Assembly (NCBI GenBank): GCA_026416715.1 | Contig: JAOAEQ010000020.1 | Location: forward strand, 1-64,000 | Direction of reading: 5' to 3' | From: a bacterium | GTDB taxonomy: Bacteria; UBP4; UBA4092; JAOAEQ01 | DNA length: 64,000 bases | Shown: piece by piece, positions 1,542 to 22,906 of the stretch | Position numbering within the stretch: position 1 is the stretch's first letter | How the letters are laid out: every line of letters begins with the position of its first letter | The notes under the pieces: model-generated | Seen by the model: the letters and a program-made list of their open reading frames with translations, nothing else | What the model was told of the DNA's origin: nothing | Database searches by the model: none | Made by a program: the position numbers and the translations under genes

Positions 1542-1584
1542 GGAGTATAGTGAGAATTGAACCGTTCAATTCTCACTATACTCC
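1542..1584. repeat. Perfect 43-base palindrome (21-base arms, 1-base centre)
   Basis: The left arm (1542-1562) begins GGAGTATAGTGAG and continues to GAATTGAAC; the right arm (1564-1584) is its exact reverse complement, with only C1563 between them. There is no T-tract on either side, so it is not a standard terminator. It lies 36 bases before the preferred glcD start. It could be an operator, a processed RNA hairpin or the remnant of a small palindromic element. Confidence 0.9.
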
Positions 1585-1619
1585 ACTATTGCTACCAATT
1601 AATCCATTATAAAGTCAAA

Positions 1620-2999
1620 ATGTATAAGCAGGATATACTATATAAATTACAAGGTATTGTTGGGGAAAAATATGCAACTGCGGATTTAGAAGACCGAATC
1701 TGCTATGCGTATGACGCTACTGGCCAACGAGTTCAACCAGATTATGTGGTTAAACCAGCTAACCCTAATGAAATCAGTCGAATAATGAAATTAGCTACCC
1801 GATTTCGGATTCCGGTATATCCCCGTGGGGCTGGTAGCGGGTTAACCGGCGGTTCGGTTCCAATTAAAAAGGGTATAGCGCTTGTTTTAACGCGGTTAAA
1901 TCGCATTTTAGAACTCGATAAAGCTAATCATACGGTAACAGTCGAATCAGGCGTTTTCGTAGCGGAATTACAAAAATTCGTTGAATCTCAAGGGTTATTT
2001 TATCCACCTGACCCTGCTAGTGCTGATTTCTCGACTATCGGCGGGAATATCGCTGAAAATGCTGGCGGGTTACGTGCGTGCCGATATGGAGTAACCCGAG
2101 ATTATGTTCTCCAGCTTGAAGCGGTTCTGCCGACTGGTGAAATCATCCATACCGGCGCAAAAACGGTTAAAAGTGTTAGCGGCTACGATGTAACTCGATT
2201 GCTGGTCGGTTCGGAAGGGACACTAGCGATTATTACCAAAGCGGTTTTGCGGTTGATTGCGAAAGTGCCTGCACGTAAAACAATGTATGCGGTTTTCCCG
2301 CAGATAACTAACGCTGCGGAAACGGTTTCTGATATTGTAGCGCAATCGGTTATCCCATCAACGTTAGAGTTGATGGATCAGAGAACCATCGAATGTATTG
2401 AAGCATATAAACCTACCGGACTGCCGAAACAAGCTGGTGCGATTCTGTTCATTGAAGAAGACGGGCTCCCAGAACAGATTGAGCAAGTTATCCGTCAGAT
2501 AGTATGTATTTGTAAAAAGCATAATGCGCTTACGATTCGCGTCGCTAAAAATGCTGAAGAACGCGAACGGTTATGGGAGCTACGTCGGGCAGTTTCGCCA
2601 GCGATAACCCGAATTGCAGGTAAGAAAATTAATGAAGATATTTGCGTGCCACGAAGTGAATTAGCGCGGTTATTTATCGCTATTCAACAAATCGAGAAGA
2701 AATATCGGGTTCCGATTGTTAACTATGGTCATGCTGGCGATGGGAATATCCATGTCAATGTTATGGTTAATCCCGATGATACACAAGAAATTGCGCGTGG
2801 GCATAAAGCGGTAGAAGAGATTTTTAAAGTTGTACTCAAACTCGGGGGAACCTTATCCGGTGAACATGGTATCGGGAATACTAAATCCGCTTATCTCAGT
2901 TGGGAAATACCGCCAGCGGAATTGCGTTTGATGAAAGAAATCAAGAAGTTATTCGACCCAAATAATATTTTGAATCCAGGGAAGATATTCTATAAATAA
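1620..2999 (+). CDS. glcD: Glycolate oxidase/D-lactate dehydrogenase-type FAD subunit GlcD
   Basis: 459 residues from the ATG at 1620. The N-terminal PCMH-type FAD-binding domain shows PRGAGSGLTGG at about residues 68-78. The C-terminal FAD-oxidase domain shows HAGDGNIHVN (about 370) and the conserved GEHGIG (about 414), ending NPGKIF, as in GlcD and bacterial D-lactate dehydrogenases. It oxidises a 2-hydroxy acid and passes electrons to the iron-sulfur partner encoded 14 bases downstream. A TTG at 1557 would extend the protein by 21 residues, but it lies within the palindrome and the added residues are unlike the family, so ATG 1620 is preferred. Substrate (glycolate or D-lactate) cannot be told from sequence. 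Confidence 0.9.
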   Translation: MYKQDILYKLQGIVGEKYATADLEDRICYAYDATGQRVQPDYVVKPANPNEISRIMKLATRFRIPVYPRGAGSGLTGGSVPIKKGIALVLTRLNRILELDKANHTVTVESGVFVAELQKFVESQGLFYPPDPASADFSTIGGNIAENAGGLRACRYGVTRDYVLQLEAVLPTGEIIHTGAKTVKSVSGYDVTRLLVGSEGTLAIITKAVLRLIAKVPARKTMYAVFPQITNAAETVSDIVAQSVIPSTLELMDQRTIECIEAYKPTGLPKQAGAILFIEEDGLPEQIEQVIRQIVCICKKHNALTIRVAKNAEERERLWELRRAVSPAITRIAGKKINEDICVPRSELARLFIAIQQIEKKYRVPIVNYGHAGDGNIHVNVMVNPDDTQEIARGHKAVEEIFKVVLKLGGTLSGEHGIGNTKSAYLSWEIPPAELRLMKEIKKLFDPNNILNPGKIFYK

Positions 3000-3013
3000 G
3001 CAAGTAAAAGTCT

Positions 3014-4135
3014 ATGAACTTGAAAGTTTTCGGGAAAATACTAGCTGAAATCAATAAGTGTAACCAATGCGGGAAATGTTTAGCGGTATGTCCGACATAT
3101 TGGATAACCGCAAATGAATGTGATACTGCCCGCGGGTTACTTGAACTCATCAAAACGGTACATACTGGGAACCTCGCAATAACCGATAAATACGTTACGC
3201 ATGTATATCGCTGTTTATCCTGTCGAGCGTGTGAAGAAGTTTGTCCGAGTAATATTGCGCTTAATGAAGTGTTTACTTGGGCGAGAGAGCAAATTCCAGT
3301 GACCAGAGGTAAGAAATTCGAAATGAGAGAAATCCCGTATTCGTCGACATCAGAAGTTTGGAAAGAATATCTTGCGAATCAGTTTGGTCGAATACAACAA
3401 AGAACAGCATTTTTAACTTCTATTCCTGAACGAGTAGGGAAGAAAAATGCGAAAGAACGGGTCGGGTATTTCGTAGGCTGTCTAATGGATATAGGATATC
3501 CGGAGACCGCAGAAAAAAATGTTGCCTGGTTAGTAGCGAATCGGTATGAAGTTATTATTCCGAAAGAGCAAGAATGTTGCGGGATGCCAGCGATATCATT
3601 CGGTGCGATTCGTTCTGCGAAAGATAAAATTGAAAAGAATATTGCGATATTTAAATCGTATAGCGTTCGAACGATTATCACCGGTTGTCCGCATTGCGTG
3701 GTAATGATTCGGAATCAATGGAGTAGAATAGCGAGACGGATTCCGTTTAATATTTGCCATATCGCAGAAGTGGTCGCAATATCTGGTGGTAATTTAAATT
3801 CGAACATAACTAAAAAGAATCGGGTAGGATATCAACCGGCGTGTTATTTACATCGTGGGGTAGCATTTGTTCCGAATATCAATACTTTGTTTACTGAATC
3901 AGTAAAGAATTATGTTGAACTGAACCATGCGATAACCTGTTGCGGGCAGGCGGGTATTAATGGATTCTTGTTTCCTGCGGTAGCAAAAGAAATCGCATCC
4001 CGACAAATAGAAAGATATGTTTGCGCTAATGTTGATTGTATAATTACCGTTTGTCCTTGGTGTCATCTGATGTATGATAAGATTAAAAGGAAGAATGTTG
4101 ACATACATTCATTAGGGGATATTTTAAAAGTATAA
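3014..4135 (+). CDS. glcF: Glycolate oxidase iron-sulfur subunit GlcF
   Basis: 373 residues. Two 4Fe-4S ferredoxin motifs lie near the N-terminus: Cys16, 19, 22, 26 (CNQCGKCLAVCP) and Cys67, 70, 73, 77 (CLSCRACEEVCP). Two cysteine-rich CCG domains follow, with CCGMPA near residue 188 and CCGQAG near 308, as in GlcF and heterodisulfide reductase HdrD-type subunits. It accepts electrons from GlcD, probably at the inner face of the membrane, and delivers them to the quinone pool or another carrier. It lies directly after glcD and is probably co-transcribed. No third subunit (GlcE) is present here, which is common outside the enterobacteria. Confidence 0.9.
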   Translation: MNLKVFGKILAEINKCNQCGKCLAVCPTYWITANECDTARGLLELIKTVHTGNLAITDKYVTHVYRCLSCRACEEVCPSNIALNEVFTWAREQIPVTRGKKFEMREIPYSSTSEVWKEYLANQFGRIQQRTAFLTSIPERVGKKNAKERVGYFVGCLMDIGYPETAEKNVAWLVANRYEVIIPKEQECCGMPAISFGAIRSAKDKIEKNIAIFKSYSVRTIITGCPHCVVMIRNQWSRIARRIPFNICHIAEVVAISGGNLNSNITKKNRVGYQPACYLHRGVAFVPNINTLFTESVKNYVELNHAITCCGQAGINGFLFPAVAKEIASRQIERYVCANVDCIITVCPWCHLMYDKIKRKNVDIHSLGDILKV

Positions 4136-14385: not shown

Positions 14386-17300
14386 TTACCCTAATTTGCG
14401 CAGTTGTTTGGTTGCAGTGCGGTTATTCGGTTCAAGTTGCAGGACTTTTTCGTAATATTCTTTTGCGGTTTGTGTTTCACCTTTTTTAACGTACAGGTCT
14501 GCGATCGCAAGATAATCATCGACTAGCTCTAATTCTAAACCTTCTTGCAGATGTGTATCGATTAGTCCTAGGTAGAGTGCAACATTTTCTGGATCGAGTT
14601 TTATCGCTGCTCGATACGCGTTGACCGCATCAGTTGGCTTGCCTTGTTGTGCATAGAGTTTCGCCAGTTCCTGATATTGTGCTACCGCTTCAGTATTTTT
14701 TTTCGTATTTAACAATAAATCAATAAACTCTTTCCGGAGTGCAACATTTTCCGGGTCGAACTTTATCGCTTCCTGATATGCGGTAATCGCTTCCGGAATC
14801 GCTTTCCGTTTATAGAAAATCGTACCTAGCGCTTGTGAATATTTAACCGCATCCGATTTCCGTCCTTGCATTAAAGCGATTTTTATTAAATTTGAATGAC
14901 TTTCTACATTTTCTGGTTCAAGCTCGAGAATGGTTTCATAAATTTCTTTCGCCTTATTAATTTTATCTTTTTCAAAATAGGTTTTTGCGAGTTTCTGATA
15001 AATTTCTATAGCACTCGATTTCTTTTTCGTGGTTTTATGCAGATTCGCTACTGTTTCCAACAGCATGGTGTTTTCCGGGTCTAGCGCAATCGCGCGCTGA
15101 TATATCGCAATCGATTTATCGGTATCTCCTGATTGCAGATATGCCTGCGCGATTGCCATATATTGTGCGATTGCTTCTGAATACGCTCCCCGCCGTTCAT
15201 ACATTTCCGCAATTACTACTCGAATTTGCAGATTATTCGGGTCAATATTCAGCATCGTTAAAAAAATCCGAATTGCATCATCAAACTTATTCTGTTGCGC
15301 AAATAACGTCGCAAGTGCATCGTATTCAAGTAACGCTTCATGAATCATTCCCGATTTCAGATAAAACTGACCGAGTTTCTCACGCCGTTCTGGGTTTTCT
15401 GGATCAAGGGAAACAATGGTTCGCAAAATCTCACCAATTTTTTCAGTTTCCCCTTGTTTAGTGTAAATATTCGCGAGTTGCGTATATAAATTGATTGCAG
15501 AATTAATCTGCTGGGTTTCTGTATATAATTGAGCGAGATTAGTAATGATTTCGGTATTTTCGGGAAATAGTTTCAATTGTTGTTCATAAGCTGCAATAGC
15601 ATTGGGTAAGTCTTGTGCTGAACGATATTGTTCTGCGATAATGTGCAAGTGGTTCCCCGCTTCCTGGTAATTTTTCGTATTCAGATATGCAGCAACCAAT
15701 TTTTTCCGCGTTTCTAAATGATTCGGCTCAATCTGGAGAATATGCTGTAATTCATCTATCGCAGAATCCAACTTCTTCTGAGCAAGTAAAACATCAACTA
15801 ATTTTAGTAGGATTTGCAGGGCGGTATCTTTCCTGCCGGTTTTCTGGTAGGTATCTGCAAGCAGACGATAAACCGATTCTTCATCTGGGGCTAGGCTTAC
15901 TATCTGTTCAGCAAGGGCTTCTGCTTCTGAGAAAAGGTTCTTCTGCAGATATATTTTGGCTAATTGGAGCATATGACTTACGCGTTGTTTCACTGGCATC
16001 AAGGTTGGATAGTTACCAGCATGGGTAGCTTCCAGTTTAACTAAGGTCTCTGCAGTCGTTAAGTCGTTCGGGTCAAGTTTAAGGATGTATTCGTAGGTTT
16101 CAATTGCGCGTTTGAAATCCCGTTTTTGTTCGAAAATGCCGCCTAATTGCGTATAGATTTTTTTCGCTTCAGATATTGCGCGTAATTCCGTGAGCAACTC
16201 TGCTAAACTCAAAAGAACCTCCGGTTTATTCGGGGTGATTTCTAACTCCCGACGATACATATTCGCTGCTTTATTGATATCTTTAATATCAACATACGCT
16301 TGGGCTAACTTATCGTAGATGGCGGCTACTTCCGTCAGTTTATTCTGGCTCTGATAACATTCTAATAGTAAACTTAAGGTTGGAATATGTTTGGGTTCGT
16401 CCGCTAAAATCTCCTGCGCTAATGCAATCGCTTTTGCTATTTCATTTTTCTTCTGATATATTTGTGCGAGTGCGAGTTTCATCTCGCGAATTTTATCCGG
16501 TTGTTTGAGTTGCGTATATATGGTAATCAGTTTTTCACGGACGCCAATATGATCCGAATCAATCGCAATAATCTGATTGTATTTTTCAATCGCTTGATTA
16601 AACTCGCGTTTTGCTTCTAGCAGTGTTCCCATTTCTAGATATTCCTGAATTGCTTCTTTATACTTTTCCAACTTCTGATATAATTCCGCTAGTGCGGTAT
16701 GGATAGCAATATCATCAGGCGATAATTTTAACATCGCTTGATAAATCTCTACAGCAGAAGTTGGTTCATTCTCAGCAAGATAGAGATTAACTAATTGCTG
16801 ATACTGTTCAAATGCCAACTCTTTTTTCCCAAGTTTGATATAGACATCAATCAGTTTATATCGCAGGTCAGTATCTTGCGGGACCAATGCAATTTGTCGC
16901 TGATATATTCCTGCAACTTTATCCAGTTCATTTTTCTGCAGATATTGTTCTGCAAGATATTCCATTAGCGGAGCAGCATCGTGAATTTGGTTGGTTGCAA
17001 GTAGCAATTCGATACGCTGTTCGACGAGCGATAAATTTTCTGGGTCAGCAAGAAACGCTTGGTTTAATACCTGCAATGCTTCAGCAATTTTATTCTGTTT
17101 TGCAAACCGGTCAGCTAATTGCTGTAATATGCCAACCGCTTTTTGGGTTTGGTCAGTCGCTATATAAGCTTCAGCCAACTGTTTCTGCCACTTAATCTCG
17201 GTCGGCGCTAATTCCGTTAACCGAGTTAGAACCTTAATGGTTTCCTCAAAATTCGCTTGATATTGATATTGGGTAAGCAGTTTTTCTAACACGTGAATTG

Positions 17301-18123
17301 CTTGGTCAGTCTGCCCAACCTGGGCATATAATTCTGCTCCCTGGAGCTTATATTCCGTTAGATCCGGATATAAATCAATTAATTTCTCAATGATTTGGAG
17401 TGCCGATTGATATTCTTTCTGCTCAATGTATACCGGAAGAATTTTTTTCCACAACTCGGTTGCTTTTTCCGTTTGTTTTTCATCGAGATAAAGTTCAGCG
17501 AGTAATTCGTTCCCGAGCAGGTGGGTTGGGTTCCATTCGATTAACTGCGTAAGGAAAACCATCGCTTGTTTTCGGTTCTTTTTCTCATCGGCTAATTTTG
17601 CCGCATAAAACGCTCGTTCAACCGCAATGTCAATCAGCCCGGTTTCTTTATATAGATCAAGAATCCGCTGCCATAACGACCAGTTTGTCGGCGCAAAATC
17701 AAGTAATGCTTGAAATTCTTGAATCGCTGTTTCCCGTTTACCTGCACTGACTAATGACTCTGCTCTCGCGATCGCATCAGCAATAAGTTCATCCGTTGCG
17801 GGAAGTTGTCCTTCTATTTTCAACTCTTTTGCCCAGAAAAGTATAGCGGTCGCTAACGGTTGTTTTGTTGAAAAGCAGTATAAATCGAGCAGCGTTCCAC
17901 CTTTATTTCCTGGACAGAGTGTATACGCACATTTAAATCGCAACTGGTCTTTATAAATACTGAGAGAACGAAATATACTTTCTTTATGAATCGGACAAAA
18001 ACATTTTATCGTCTGTCCTTCAATATTGCATGTGGCAAGATTAACCCCGATCTTCTCGATAACCAATTCAGCCGTTAATTTGTTATTTACTTTATCAATA
18101 ACTTCTTGCGGGATAACAGCCAT
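14386..18123 (-). CDS. Giant TPR protein with an N-terminal CHC2 (DnaG-primase-type) zinc finger
   Basis: 1245 residues. The first about 100 residues form a CHC2-like zinc finger: Cys43-x2-His46, then Cys65-x4-Cys70, with the flanking FRSLSIYKD and GNKGGTLLDL resembling the FSVSPEK and GGDVFSFV parts of DnaG. No TOPRIM primase domain follows. Instead about 30 tandem TPR repeats of about 34 residues (patterns such as AIEIYQKLAKTYFEKDKINK, LDPEN) run to the end, forming a long scaffold. No signal peptide or membrane segment, so probably cytoplasmic. ATG 18123 is preferred over TTG 18141 because a TATACT box at 18147-18142 lies directly against the TTG. Function unknown; nucleic-acid binding by the finger is inference. 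Confidence 0.8.
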   Translation of the reverse strand: MAVIPQEVIDKVNNKLTAELVIEKIGVNLATCNIEGQTIKCFCPIHKESIFRSLSIYKDQLRFKCAYTLCPGNKGGTLLDLYCFSTKQPLATAILFWAKELKIEGQLPATDELIADAIARAESLVSAGKRETAIQEFQALLDFAPTNWSLWQRILDLYKETGLIDIAVERAFYAAKLADEKKNRKQAMVFLTQLIEWNPTHLLGNELLAELYLDEKQTEKATELWKKILPVYIEQKEYQSALQIIEKLIDLYPDLTEYKLQGAELYAQVGQTDQAIHVLEKLLTQYQYQANFEETIKVLTRLTELAPTEIKWQKQLAEAYIATDQTQKAVGILQQLADRFAKQNKIAEALQVLNQAFLADPENLSLVEQRIELLLATNQIHDAAPLMEYLAEQYLQKNELDKVAGIYQRQIALVPQDTDLRYKLIDVYIKLGKKELAFEQYQQLVNLYLAENEPTSAVEIYQAMLKLSPDDIAIHTALAELYQKLEKYKEAIQEYLEMGTLLEAKREFNQAIEKYNQIIAIDSDHIGVREKLITIYTQLKQPDKIREMKLALAQIYQKKNEIAKAIALAQEILADEPKHIPTLSLLLECYQSQNKLTEVAAIYDKLAQAYVDIKDINKAANMYRRELEITPNKPEVLLSLAELLTELRAISEAKKIYTQLGGIFEQKRDFKRAIETYEYILKLDPNDLTTAETLVKLEATHAGNYPTLMPVKQRVSHMLQLAKIYLQKNLFSEAEALAEQIVSLAPDEESVYRLLADTYQKTGRKDTALQILLKLVDVLLAQKKLDSAIDELQHILQIEPNHLETRKKLVAAYLNTKNYQEAGNHLHIIAEQYRSAQDLPNAIAAYEQQLKLFPENTEIITNLAQLYTETQQINSAINLYTQLANIYTKQGETEKIGEILRTIVSLDPENPERREKLGQFYLKSGMIHEALLEYDALATLFAQQNKFDDAIRIFLTMLNIDPNNLQIRVVIAEMYERRGAYSEAIAQYMAIAQAYLQSGDTDKSIAIYQRAIALDPENTMLLETVANLHKTTKKKSSAIEIYQKLAKTYFEKDKINKAKEIYETILELEPENVESHSNLIKIALMQGRKSDAVKYSQALGTIFYKRKAIPEAITAYQEAIKFDPENVALRKEFIDLLLNTKKNTEAVAQYQELAKLYAQQGKPTDAVNAYRAAIKLDPENVALYLGLIDTHLQEGLELELVDDYLAIADLYVKKGETQTAKEYYEKVLQLEPNNRTATKQLRKLG

Positions 18124-18141
18124 AGACTTTTGCCGGTACAA

Positions 18142-18147
18142 AGTATA
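18142..18147 (-). promoter_or_regulatory. -10 box for the CHC2-TPR gene
   Basis: Read leftward, TATACT lies 18 bases before the ATG at 18123, giving a leader of about 12 bases. No convincing -35 is visible. It argues against the TTG at 18141 as the start. Confidence 0.4.
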
Positions 18148-18214
18148 AAGTGCGTAATACTAATACTATATATTTCATGCTTTCTACTATGCACCGAATT
18201 AGAGAATATTATGG

Positions 18215-21200
18215 TTAACTAGAAATTTTTATGTTATCCAAATATAATACCGCTACTGTAGCAGGATTATCACGAATCGAAATCGTGTTTAATGCCTCTG
18301 GAGTTCCTGGAACCCGAGCTGCAGTAACTACCTTATTTCCATCTACATATCCATTAACTACCGCATTGGTTAAATCAACCTCATACTTAATATGAACCCA
18401 TTTCCCTAACTGATACGGCACTGATTCGCCTTGGAGCCGCAAACTAGCTTGGGTTCCATCTTCCGGAGTATGGATAACCGTATGTACTGCTTTCCGGAAG
18501 TCTTCGTCCGCTTCAAGATATACACCTAAAAAATATTTATTTTTCTTTTCACAACATAAATCGAATTCAATGGTAAATTTCCCGGTCGCATTCGGGAACC
18601 GACAGCGATAATGCGTTGACCCGCTTCCTTCCTTCTTTTCAAATTTTAATGCGTTTCCAGTATCATTTGCACGAACTGAGTTTTGTACCTGAATCGTTGC
18701 ATAAGCAAACTCGCCGTTCCACCCAGCGGGTCGCATACCAGATGATTCGCTATCAAAATCTTGTTCGAAAATTACGCCAGGAGCCGTTGGTGCACTAACC
18801 GAAGTAATCGGAGCGGTGACTTCCGATGGTGCTACAACCGGTTCTGTCGGTGGTACAGGAGTAGGTGTCGGTGGTGGAGTAGGTGGTGGTGGAGCTGTCG
18901 AAGTAGGTTCGGGTGCTGGAGGTGTTTTCTTTTGCCGTTCTTTTTCCGCTTCCTGTTGAGTTTTCAGCGATTTGCGAGCGAACTCTGCTTTCCGTTTCGG
19001 GTCAGGGTTGTTCGGATCAATCTGGCTTGCTTGTAAAAATGAGGCGATTGCATCTTCAAATTTTCCTTGCTCCAGTTCATCCAGTCCTTTCTGGTACCAC
19101 TTTTCATATTCCTGCTGTTTAGCAGCTGCTTTTTCTCGTTCTTCACGTTCTTTAGCTTCTCGTTCTGCAGCTAATTTCGCTTCCAGTTCTCGTTTCTTCT
19201 TTCCGCCAAATAACGAAAATCCTTTCTTCTTTTCCGCAACAGTGGGTTTTGTCGGCGCTGGTGTCACTTTGGCTGGTTCAGGAGCAGATTCCGAGACTAC
19301 TGCCGCTTTAACTTTAACTGGTTTCGGTTTCCGTTCCCGGGATAGTATACTTTTCATTATTGTTGGAACAATAAAAATTAAGCCAGCTATTATTAAAATA
19401 CCCGCACCTATATATATAATCCAATTCCAGAGTTTGCTCTTTTTTGCCTGTTCGATTTCTTTTATTTTTAATTCCGCGTTTGCAATAGCTTCTTTTGCTT
19501 CGATATGGTTTGGATCTTCGCGTAAAATTTGTTGCCATTGTTCAATCGCTTGATTAATGATATCAATATCACTCTGCGCAGCACCGGATGCGTAAAGGTT
19601 ACGCGCTTCTTTATATTTTTTATCCAATTCTGCAGTTTTATCCGCTTTAGCTTTCAATTCTTCTTTTTTAGTATCCGGTAATGGTGCTAGACGTTCTTTC
19701 GCTAAAGCGATGTAGAGTGTCGCGCGTGGATCACGGGGATCAATTCTTAAAACCTGATTCCAAGTTTCGACTGCTGCTAAATAATTGGCTTGCTCCCATA
19801 AATTCATCGCTTTTGCATTTAATGCATCTACCTCTTTTCGTTTCGCTTCTTCTTCAGCAATTCGTCGTTTCTGTTCTTCGAGCACCAACCGTGATTCTTC
19901 GCTTAATTTTTCGTGCGCTTCTTGCAATCGCTGAATTGCTTTCGTATTATCCGCCTGAAGTTGCAACAATCGTTCTAATTGGAGAATCGCTTGGTCATAT
20001 TGTTTTTTTGCAAATAACTCTTCTGCACGGTCTGCAATTGCGGTAAGTTCCCGTTTCTTTTGTTCTTCTTGCTCAGGAGTTAATGCTATCTGCGGTCGAA
20101 CTTCACCGGCACGAACTATCCGTAAATCAGTATATCCTTCAGCTTTCAATTTTGGGATTAATCCAGCAGCTTCTGTTTCTGAATTAAATGCACCTATGAG
20201 CAGGTTATATAGTGGTTCTTCAGCTTCAACAAAAACAGGCCAAAATCCTTTCGCTTCAAGTTTTGCTTTTTGTAATAACGCTTCTTTCTGGTCAGGAAAC
20301 GATGCAATGAATACTCGGTATACGATTTTGGTTACCGCTGGCGGTGGTGCGCCACCAGCACCACCAGCGAAAATCCAGAAATCACCGGTTAATCCCGGGA
20401 ACACCAATCCACGTTGCGGATCTTTCAACGCGGCAACAATCCGTTGCGCTGTCGTTATACTCGGAAAAGGACCAAGACGTACTTTCTGATAATTCTGTTC
20501 CTGATTAATAACGACATTAGTAAATCCGAGTTTCTCGATTGCTTTCTTAACCGCTTGCGCATTTGATTCAACTCGATACGCACCTATCTGAATCCAGTAA
20601 TTCCCAACACCAATAGGTGTTCCTGGCGGTTGAGCTGCGGTAACCCCAGTTATCGGGACTGATTTAATTGCTTTTAGGTTACTATCCATAATCCAGCATC
20701 CACTAAAATCCGGTGAAACGAGCCGAGCATTAATATCATTCGCTAGATTAACCGCATCGTCAATCGTATTGAAATTACCGACCTGAACGCGATAATACTG
20801 TCCATCAAACACAATATTAATTCCACTATAACCTAGCGAAGCTAATTGCGATTTTATTCCATTCGCTTTACTTTCGGAAGAAAATGCGGCAATTTGCACC
20901 CGATATGTTACCGGTGCCGCAGATGAAGTTGCAGTAATGCCCGTAGACCATTTCTGGAGAGGAGCATTAGTGAACTGCGCGATGTATAATGTTGTTCCGT
21001 CAGGAGTAATAGCTATCCCACGCGGAGAACGAAATCCGGGAGTACCGCCGACAATATCCGTTTCAAAAATACCAGTTGATGAGAAAACTTTAATTCGATC
21101 AGCGCCGGTTTCTGCGATATAAATTCTCCCTTCTTTATCCAGCTCAACAGCTCCCGGTCGAGATAAATTTGAAGCCACTGTTCCAACAAGTTGATATTGA

Positions 21201-21883
21201 ACGCGATTACCCGAAATTTTGCCAGCGAATTTTAATACTTCCCCGGGGTTTTCAGCGGTAATATAGACCGTTGCGCCGTCTGGAGTAACCGTGATACCGC
21301 GAAACATTGACCGACTACCAACGATAGTAACTGGACTCCCTTCTAGTTCGTTTCCATCAGCATCTAGAACATGAAATGCGTTACCGGTTTTTTCAGCGAT
21401 AAAAATATGTCCGGAATCGGATATAGCTATATCGCCGAGTGAATATTTTAAGGTTATCCCTGGTAATGCTGTTCCGAAGGCATTATATTTATAAATTCGT
21501 TTCGGGCTGATCATTGCATCGTCAGAAATATAAATTATTCCTTGTTTATCAATGGCAATTCCGGATGGATTTTCGAGTTTAACCGCATTACCTAAATGGT
21601 CGAGTCCAGAATTGATTGGTGAAAAGCTCGCTTCTTGTCCATCGGGCATATATATTCGTATTTCATGGTCGGAATATGCGGCAACCCAAACTTTTCCATC
21701 AGGTGCGACCGTAACAAACTGAGCACCGTTCATATTTCTACCGAAATTCGATTCGAATTGGAATGCTGGAAAACCCAAAATAGCAAAGATAACGCAGCCG
21801 AACAATGTTATTGAAATCGTACGTAACAGCCGTAGTCTTGATAAGTTACGAGCGGAAATGTTTAGCATTAAATGAAATCGCAT
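18215..21883 (-). CDS. Giant envelope protein: NHL repeats, three SPOR domains, TPRs, membrane helix, LamG-like domain
   Basis: 1222 residues. Order: N-terminal hydrophobic signal/anchor (about 20-42); NHL beta-propeller repeats such as NPSGIAIDKQGIIYISDD (about 50-315); three SPOR peptidoglycan-binding repeats starting near 324 (YRVQIAAFSS), 425 (YWIQIGAYRV) and 519 (YRVFIASFPD); charged TPR/coiled region (about 600-810); a membrane helix (about 817-842); a Lys/Ala/Pro-rich stretch with one more TPR; and a LamG/concanavalin-like beta-sandwich (about 1036-1222, starting FEQDFDSESSGMRP). SPOR domains bind denuded glycan at division sites, so a wall-associated scaffold is likely. AGGAGA just before the ATG fixes the start. 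The whole architecture is unfamiliar to me. Confidence 0.8.
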   Translation of the reverse strand: MRFHLMLNISARNLSRLRLLRTISITLFGCVIFAILGFPAFQFESNFGRNMNGAQFVTVAPDGKVWVAAYSDHEIRIYMPDGQEASFSPINSGLDHLGNAVKLENPSGIAIDKQGIIYISDDAMISPKRIYKYNAFGTALPGITLKYSLGDIAISDSGHIFIAEKTGNAFHVLDADGNELEGSPVTIVGSRSMFRGITVTPDGATVYITAENPGEVLKFAGKISGNRVQYQLVGTVASNLSRPGAVELDKEGRIYIAETGADRIKVFSSTGIFETDIVGGTPGFRSPRGIAITPDGTTLYIAQFTNAPLQKWSTGITATSSAAPVTYRVQIAAFSSESKANGIKSQLASLGYSGINIVFDGQYYRVQVGNFNTIDDAVNLANDINARLVSPDFSGCWIMDSNLKAIKSVPITGVTAAQPPGTPIGVGNYWIQIGAYRVESNAQAVKKAIEKLGFTNVVINQEQNYQKVRLGPFPSITTAQRIVAALKDPQRGLVFPGLTGDFWIFAGGAGGAPPPAVTKIVYRVFIASFPDQKEALLQKAKLEAKGFWPVFVEAEEPLYNLLIGAFNSETEAAGLIPKLKAEGYTDLRIVRAGEVRPQIALTPEQEEQKKRELTAIADRAEELFAKKQYDQAILQLERLLQLQADNTKAIQRLQEAHEKLSEESRLVLEEQKRRIAEEEAKRKEVDALNAKAMNLWEQANYLAAVETWNQVLRIDPRDPRATLYIALAKERLAPLPDTKKEELKAKADKTAELDKKYKEARNLYASGAAQSDIDIINQAIEQWQQILREDPNHIEAKEAIANAELKIKEIEQAKKSKLWNWIIYIGAGILIIAGLIFIVPTIMKSILSRERKPKPVKVKAAVVSESAPEPAKVTPAPTKPTVAEKKKGFSLFGGKKKRELEAKLAAEREAKEREEREKAAAKQQEYEKWYQKGLDELEQGKFEDAIASFLQASQIDPNNPDPKRKAEFARKSLKTQQEAEKERQKKTPPAPEPTSTAPPPPTPPPTPTPVPPTEPVVAPSEVTAPITSVSAPTAPGVIFEQDFDSESSGMRPAGWNGEFAYATIQVQNSVRANDTGNALKFEKKEGSGSTHYRCRFPNATGKFTIEFDLCCEKKNKYFLGVYLEADEDFRKAVHTVIHTPEDGTQASLRLQGESVPYQLGKWVHIKYEVDLTNAVVNGYVDGNKVVTAARVPGTPEALNTISIRDNPATVAVLYLDNIKISS

Positions 21884-22351
21884 AAAAAATTTCTCCTAAA
21901 AAATGAATTTGTCGATAAAATATAACACTTTATCTTACTCAAAAGTCAGTCATTCGTCAAGTGTTTAGTGATAGATTGATTAGATTTAATGAAATTCACG
22001 ATAGATTTCGTGGGGACGAAGGAGATTAACCTAAAGATAGACCACAGCGGCGTTAGGGCGGAGAAGAAATATCATGCCATTCGGGACTAACGGTCTACGG
22101 TTATCTATCACAATCCAGTCATAAATATCTAGGTTAGTATCAATCATCTGAATCAACGGATATTAACAAGAAGGAATTGTGCAATACTAATTTCCAACGG
22201 TGCTGAGCACACGGTTGGTAACCATTTAGAGTTAAAAATTCTTTTCAGGCTAATGTTTGATTGATTTTGAATTAGGCAAAAATATATTTATCTTTAGTTG
22301 ATATCTATGGTACAATTCATAGTTAAACCTAACGTCTTTTATTTAGATTTT
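21884..22351. other. Divergent intergenic region between the SPOR giant and the shell-protein gene
   Basis: It contains the leftward promoter at 21932-21960. The rest, up to the shell-protein gene, has no gene, terminator or repeat that I can support. An in-frame ATG at 22307 and TTG at 22298 precede the preferred start at 22352. Confidence 0.4.
21932..21960 (-). promoter_or_regulatory. Probable promoter for the NHL-SPOR-TPR gene
   Basis: Read leftward, TTGACG (21960-21955) and TAAGAT (21937-21932) are 17 bases apart. Transcription would start near 21925, about 40 bases before the ATG at 21883. Confidence 0.4.
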
Positions 22352-22906
22352 ATGCATAAATCTATCGGGTTATTAGAGTTTAGAAGTATTGCGAAAGGAA
22401 TCGAATCTGCTGATGCGATGGTTAAAACCGCTCCGGTAGATTTGATTATTGCAGGAACATTATGTCCTGGGAAATATATTGCTGTCGTGAGCGGAGAAGT
22501 GGCGGCGGTAGAATCAGCGGTTCGTGCTGGAGCTGCGCTTGGTCGGGAAGAGTTAGTTGATGAATTAGTTATTGCCAATGTTCATCCGGATATATTTCCG
22601 GCATTAACCGCAAGTACTGATATTAACCTAAATGAGATCCAGTCGGTTGGGATTATTGAAACATTTTCAATAGCCGCTTCCGTTGCTGCAGCAGATTTAG
22701 CGGCGAAAGCCGCAAATGTAAAATTGATTGAAGTCCGACTCGCGCGCGGACTTGGCGGGAAATCGTTTGTCTGCTTAGCCGGGACGGTTGCTGAAGTTCG
22801 AGCAGCGGTTGAAGCTGGTTCCCAGTATGCGAAAGATCAAGGGTTATTAGTCAGTTCAGTGGTAATCCCATCCGCACACCCTTCCTTACTAGAAAAACTA
22901 TTATAA
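22352..22906 (+). CDS. PduT-like tandem-domain bacterial microcompartment shell protein (BMC-T)
   Basis: 184 residues from ATG 22352, the same length as Salmonella PduT as I recall it. Two BMC domains in tandem: SIGLLEFRSIAKGIESADAM... (about 4-90) and SVGIIETFSIAASVAAADLA... (about 96-180). The first contains TLCPGKY with Cys at position 38, the pore cysteine that in PduT binds a 4Fe-4S cluster. Shared stretches such as ELVDELVIANVHPDIFPAL match PduT, not EutL. Longer starts (ATG 22307, TTG 22298) would shift the cysteine to 53, so 22352 is preferred; no Shine-Dalgarno helps. No other shell protein or cargo enzyme is in the window. A trimeric shell tile with a possible electron-transfer pore is the inferred role. 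Confidence 0.88.
   Translation: MHKSIGLLEFRSIAKGIESADAMVKTAPVDLIIAGTLCPGKYIAVVSGEVAAVESAVRAGAALGREELVDELVIANVHPDIFPALTASTDINLNEIQSVGIIETFSIAASVAAADLAAKAANVKLIEVRLARGLGGKSFVCLAGTVAEVRAAVEAGSQYAKDQGLLVSSVVIPSAHPSLLEKLL

Follow-up and report, generated by a model that had tools for sequence, protein, structure and literature searches.

A PduT-type shell protein gene apart from the other genes of a probable dispersed aldolase metabolosome in a UBP4 bacterium

Introduction

PduT-type BMC-T tiles of bacterial microcompartments (BMCs) carry a pore cysteine in the motif C-P/S/A-G-K/R/S-Y/F, and the cluster of PduT is ligated by three such cysteines (PMC6325248). Citrobacter PduT holds a [4Fe-4S] cluster with a midpoint of +99 mV and is purified together with PduS, a flavoprotein that depends on NADH (PMC2982820), and export of electrons through a shell tile has been proposed for other BMCs (PMC6325248, PMC8547011). 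The PduT structures 3n79 and 3pac are those of Pang et al. 2011, as cited in PMC8547011. The sugar phosphate utilisation (SPU) type of BMC has the signature pair DeoC and RpiB, which is thought to serve DNA-derived sugar, and the FRAG types occur in Ignavibacteriae and candidate phyla (PMC8217296). A main locus by definition holds both BMC-H and BMC-P genes (PMC8217296). The literature already covers tiles of the PduT type, satellite loci of shell genes (PMC4207490, PMC8217296), the pairing of PduS with PduT and the hypothesis of an electron conduit; what is new here is a tile in a dispersed metabolosome with two aldolases, a count of stand-alone PduS-PduT pairs and a table of cysteine-PduS co-occurrence.

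A PduT-type tile without shell neighbours

The genome comprises 2.96 Mb in 64 contigs, with completeness rated 100%, and the whole stretch of DNA analysed around the tile, hereafter the window, is its first 64,000 nucleotides of contig C20 (C20:1-64000). The tile gene and its features are as follows:

22352..22906, + strand, PduT-type BMC-T shell protein gene, 184 aa (open reading frame call, PF00936, PduT-type structural relatives)
22307 (ATG) and 22298 (TTG), + strand, alternative in-frame starts of the tile gene
22361..22579, + strand, first BMC domain (PF00936, 83.7 bits, E 2.3e-23)
22643..22873, + strand, second BMC domain (PF00936, 83.1 bits, E 3.3e-23)
22463..22465, + strand, codon (TGT) of the pore-loop cysteine Cys38 in TLCPGKY, numbered from the 22352 start

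The full reading frame runs from 22298 (TTG) to 22906 with in-frame ATG codons at 22307 and 22352, and homologues start near 22352. Two PF00936 domains, scored against a cut-off of 24.5 bits, lie in a single chain as in other PduT-type BMC-T proteins, and CPGKY fits the published pore-cysteine motif, so that the tandem domains and the cysteine described in the initial annotation are both borne out; Cys38 is invariant in A2 and A3. The top solved relatives by sequence are 3nwg (E 3e-51), 3pac (1e-46), titled 'PduT with 4Fe-4S cluster binding site', and 3n79 (4e-46), which is PduT C38S, and by this measure the match to PduT-type solved proteins is far beyond chance. An AF2 monomer built from the window sequence and homologues has a pLDDT of 92.9 and places Cys38 in loop 37-41, between strands 30-36 and 42-48, which is the pore loop of the fold. 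In a Foldseek search of the model, the nearest solved structure was 3nwg, a microcompartment protein of Desulfitobacterium hafniense (50% identity, TM 0.94, rmsd 1.2), and PduT (3pac and 3n79) shared the tandem BMC fold at 42-44% identity in the structure alignment and TM 0.84-0.87. Against TIGR02526, the NCBI PduT equivalog model, the tile scores 134.8 bits, under the cut-off of 250.3, which on sequence grounds makes it a PduT-like member of a broad family outside the Eut/Pdu equivalog; because of this score, 'PduT-type' is the right name, and not 'PduT of the Pdu/Eut system'.

The neighbours of the tile are housekeeping or unrelated genes, namely a TPR/SPOR protein upstream, a LysE transporter, glycosidase-like proteins and histidine biosynthesis genes. 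Pfam scans of nearly all open reading frames of at least 130 aa in the window returned no further gene for BMC-H, BMC-P or BMC cargo, in agreement with the initial annotation, and genome-wide searches for shell genes gave no second match on C20. The lack of BMC neighbours is therefore real, but limited to the window. No tRNA was found in the window, and Rfam at the gathering score gave no match. Two very long TPR-rich proteins of 1251 and 1222 aa, the latter also containing NHL and SPOR repeats, adjoin the tile gene at 14386-21883 on the minus strand, and at 1557-4135 an FAD-linked oxidase is followed by a cysteine-rich Fe-S protein, a pair of the GlcD/GlcF or lactate dehydrogenase type.

Shell, cargo and PduS genes elsewhere in the genome

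The initial annotation called the tile an orphan and held that a complete BMC operon elsewhere in the same genome would make it an ordinary split locus. A genome-wide search returned two BMC-H and three BMC-P genes, cargo enzymes and PduS, and the orphan label is accordingly withdrawn in favour of the split locus:

C1:185048 and C1:185502, - strand, two BMC-H genes (genome-wide search)
C1:37035, C1:37485 and C2:56256, three BMC-P genes (genome-wide search)
C1:185879-186760, - strand, class II aldolase (Aldolase_II 166.9 bits)
C1 core operon, - strand, PduL (PTAC/PduL 239 bits, over the cut-off)
C1:181785-183215, - strand, aldehyde dehydrogenase of PduP/EutE type (NF011927 618.8 bits, over the cut-off)
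C1:174015-175343, - strand (that of the core operon), PduS (PF01512, SLBB, Fer4_17 and C-terminal RnfC_N)
C2:45287 (C2:45305 in a separate search), RpiB
C2:45931, phosphorylase
C2:47243, DeoC (TIGR00126 285 bits)
C2:58855, PNP
C2:59791, phosphopentomutase

The core operon lies on the minus strand at C1:181.8-186.8 kb in the order class II aldolase, BMC-H, BMC-H, PduL, TIGR02536-like flavoprotein and aldehyde dehydrogenase. RpiB, the phosphorylase, DeoC, one BMC-P, PNP and phosphopentomutase form a cluster within 16 kb (C2:45.3-61.0 kb). PduS lies 6.4 kb past the end of the core operon and has the domain composition described for PduS in PMC6325248. The tile thus has a PduS partner in its genome, with the two genes on different contigs and not adjoining. 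A role of this protein as an Rnf subunit was ruled out: its score against TIGR01945 (rnfC) is barely above the cut-off, and its RnfC_N domain is C-terminal (364-436), after PF01512, SLBB and Fer4_17. Between the core operon and PduS lie nitrite reductase genes (L008:1793-3629), of which NrfH is intact and NrfA is split over two reading frames, an apparent interruption that may reflect either a pseudogene or an error of sequencing.

Amphipathic, tag-like ends were ranked against all windows of the same protein. Those of the aldehyde dehydrogenase, DeoC (N-terminal) and the class II aldolase (C-terminal) fall in the top 0.5%, that of the TIGR02536-like protein falls in the top 3.2%, and none was found on PduL, RpiB or PduS by the same ranking. 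The only strong Fe-ADH match in the genome is one gene on C19 with no obvious tag, and no alcohol dehydrogenase was found among the identified cargo in a search that covered the Fe-ADH family alone. The B12-dependent diol dehydratase (PF02286) was not detected in the genome, a weak search with no control match. A simple search for an upstream motif shared by the split loci gave only two overlapping A/T-rich 12-mers, within the range of shuffled sequence. The database has a single further genome of this class, which lacks a PduT-like gene.

Comparison with described BMC types

The genome probably encodes an aldolase metabolosome with dispersed genes that resembles the SPU and FRAG BMCs, and the PduT-type tile lies apart at what may be a satellite locus. 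With the SPU BMC it shares a DeoC-type aldolase (pfam01791), RpiB (pfam02502), an aldehyde dehydrogenase and an inferred breakdown of nucleic acids (PMC8217296). It differs from SPU in an extra, C-terminally tagged class II aldolase, in an RpiB copy without a visible tag and in the splitting of enzyme and shell genes over several places: BMC-H at C1:185 kb, BMC-P at C1:37 kb and C2:56 kb, and DeoC at C2:47 kb, where SPU has a main locus that unites BMC-H, BMC-P and the enzymes. Dispersed shell genes and three BMC-P are shared, by published description, with the FRAG types (PMC8217296), the three BMC-P occupying two sites here, and BMC-H and BMC-T one separate site each; the aldolases, however, are identifiable here, whereas known enzymes lie far from most FRAG genes (PMC8217296). 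The ACI and PVM-like BMCs, which use a class II aldolase, share the aldehyde dehydrogenase and, in ACI, a pfam00596 aldolase with a C-terminal tag, but here DeoC, RpiB, PduS and PduT are also present, and ACI is confined to Acidobacteria.

PduT of the Pdu BMC likewise has Cys38 in a C-P/S-G-K-Y/F pore loop and a PduS partner in the genome. Differences from Pdu are the TIGR02526 score given above, the lack of a detected diol dehydratase locus and a tile gene unlinked from PduS and the shell operon. The tile locus is distal and insufficient alone, other shell loci being present in the genome, and since no locus holds BMC-H and BMC-P together, there is no formal main locus and the whole organelle is dispersed.

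Cys38 and PduS across relatives

The 80 nearest homologues were selected by a pattern of the second BMC domain and not by the cysteine. All 80 have Cys38, so the loss in close relatives that would have weakened the redox idea of the initial annotation was not seen. Within the flanks, whose reach depends on where contigs end and on what the proteins of the source genome detect, PduS lies on the same strand in 76/80, nearly always directly 5', and 42/80 have no other BMC gene.

An independent sample was taken from a separate set of whole genomes and comprised 58 full-length relatives from many families. Cys38 occurs with a nearby PduS in 40 of them and alone in five, 13 have neither, and none has a typical PduS without the cysteine (Fisher p 2.7e-9, a value that overstates the association because the relatives are not independent). 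On the tree, the association amounts to four changes in total, with one independent pair on well-supported branches. Two of the five Cys38-only genomes (G035 and G180) have PduS elsewhere, as in the source genome, and in G256 PduS is cut by a contig end; G215 and G074 encode no PduS-like protein. G189 has two tiles, a Cys copy with PduS beside it and a Ser copy without. Cys38 is lost only in distant homologues, which likewise lack a typical PduS nearby, and among homologues in aldolase BMC loci, position 38 can be Ser, Thr, Gln, Asp or His. Taken at the level of sequence, Cys38 and a typical nearby PduS appear to come and go together across the 58 relatives.

In G067 and G208, a Ser38 tile sits beside a diverged PduS that scores under the threshold of this count. 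This PduS-like protein lies 5' of the Ser38 BMC-T (L181 in G067, L186 in G208), and it keeps the cysteines of both Fe-S motifs and lacks the N-terminal flavin motif.

In the 58-relative sample, 19 of the 40 PduS-tile pairs are apart from any other detected BMC gene. BMC-P was nevertheless present in all 22 tested genomes with an unlinked PduT-like gene, usually in three copies. Since PduS and PduT are often encoded as an isolated pair although the genome has vertex proteins, the redox tile behaves as a separable accessory.

Proposed role of the tile

The tile is probably a PduT-type BMC-T that belongs to a catabolic microcompartment with genes in four or more separate genomic places, and an electron route through a pore cluster is proposed for it. 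The four places are C20 with the tile, the C1 core operon with PduS (C1:174.0-175.3 kb), C1:37 kb and the C2 cluster. By analogy with PduT and PduS of other bacteria, the tile would trimerise into a pseudo-hexagonal tile with one [4Fe-4S] cluster held by three Cys38 in the central pore. PduS, with FMN and two [4Fe-4S] clusters, would dock at the luminal face and take electrons from the NADH produced by the aldehyde dehydrogenase, and the electrons would leave through the pore to the cytosol, regenerating NAD+ inside the shell without a recognised alcohol dehydrogenase cargo. The gene content suggests that the substrates are nucleoside-derived deoxyribose phosphate and another sugar phosphate. 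Electron export to recycle NAD+ is plausible because both partners are in the genome, the aldehyde dehydrogenase is of an NAD(H) type and the identified cargo has no alcohol dehydrogenase.

The distribution of Cys38 and PduS, together with the vertex proteins in genomes with unlinked tiles, speaks for a [4Fe-4S] cluster in the pore that would receive electrons from PduS inside a compartment, the cluster and the flow being inferred. The pore might instead conduct metabolites without a cluster in a dispersed shell, with Cys38 a mere relic or a structural or gating residue. The substituted homologues in aldolase BMC loci and the two genomes that keep Cys38 without PduS are in keeping with this, and a metal is invisible to sequence tools; the reading is nonetheless unlikely, given the cysteine in 80/80 near homologues chosen by another domain, its tracking of PduS in the independent sample and the presence of PduS in this genome. 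PduS and the tile might instead serve to recycle vitamin B12, in the manner of the Pdu compartment. This role has in its favour that Citrobacter PduS reduces cobalamin (PMC2982820), but it is improbable here, as no identified cargo uses B12, the diol dehydratase was not detected in that weak search and PduS/PduT are also found in B12-independent GRM loci (PMC6325248). The initial annotation also considered electron transfer by the tile outside any compartment. This reading, in which the tile would be a free trimer, draws on the physical isolation of its gene and on the absence of BMC-H from the G220 and G177 assemblies, which are 86% and 81% complete; set against the vertex proteins in 22/22 relatives with an unlinked PduT-like gene and the full shell complement of the source genome, it has hardly any probability left.

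Several points count against the preferred reading of a PduS-fed tile in a dispersed metabolosome. PduS is encoded apart from the tile gene, unlike in most relatives, and joint expression of the loci is presumed. The Cys38-PduS link depends on few independent changes and has exceptions in G215 and G074 and in G067 and G208, the TIGR02526 score is under its cut-off, and the Fe-ADH on C19 is untagged. A more tentative extension, which we regard as possible but somewhat doubtful, is that PduS and PduT form a redox module that is portable and stands on its own, is often encoded at a distance from the shell operon, and would regenerate NAD+ by electron export via the shell pore in aldolase metabolosomes that encapsulate no alcohol dehydrogenase.

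The apparent orphan can thereby be read as part of a dispersed metabolosome, and the 58 relatives put the idea of PduT as an electron conduit to a comparative test. If NADH does drive electrons through a tile of this kind, this would bear on NAD+ recycling in shells without alcohol dehydrogenase cargo.

A cysteine linker in both aldolases

Both aldolases of the genome, DeoC on C2 (L010:744-1637) and the class II aldolase on C1 (L008:10880-11761), have a four-cysteine linker between the encapsulation tag and the catalytic domain, despite their unrelated folds. No published report of this linker was found in the literature searches made. Its typical pattern is C-xn-C-x2-C-G-x-C, and it may bind Fe-S or Zn. 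The linker occurs in nearly all BMC-linked DeoC matches and in about one in two BMC class II aldolases, with homologues in L064, L066, L114, L116, L121, L127, L132, L164, L191, L197, L199, L208, L210 and L213, and it is present also where Cys38 and PduS are missing.
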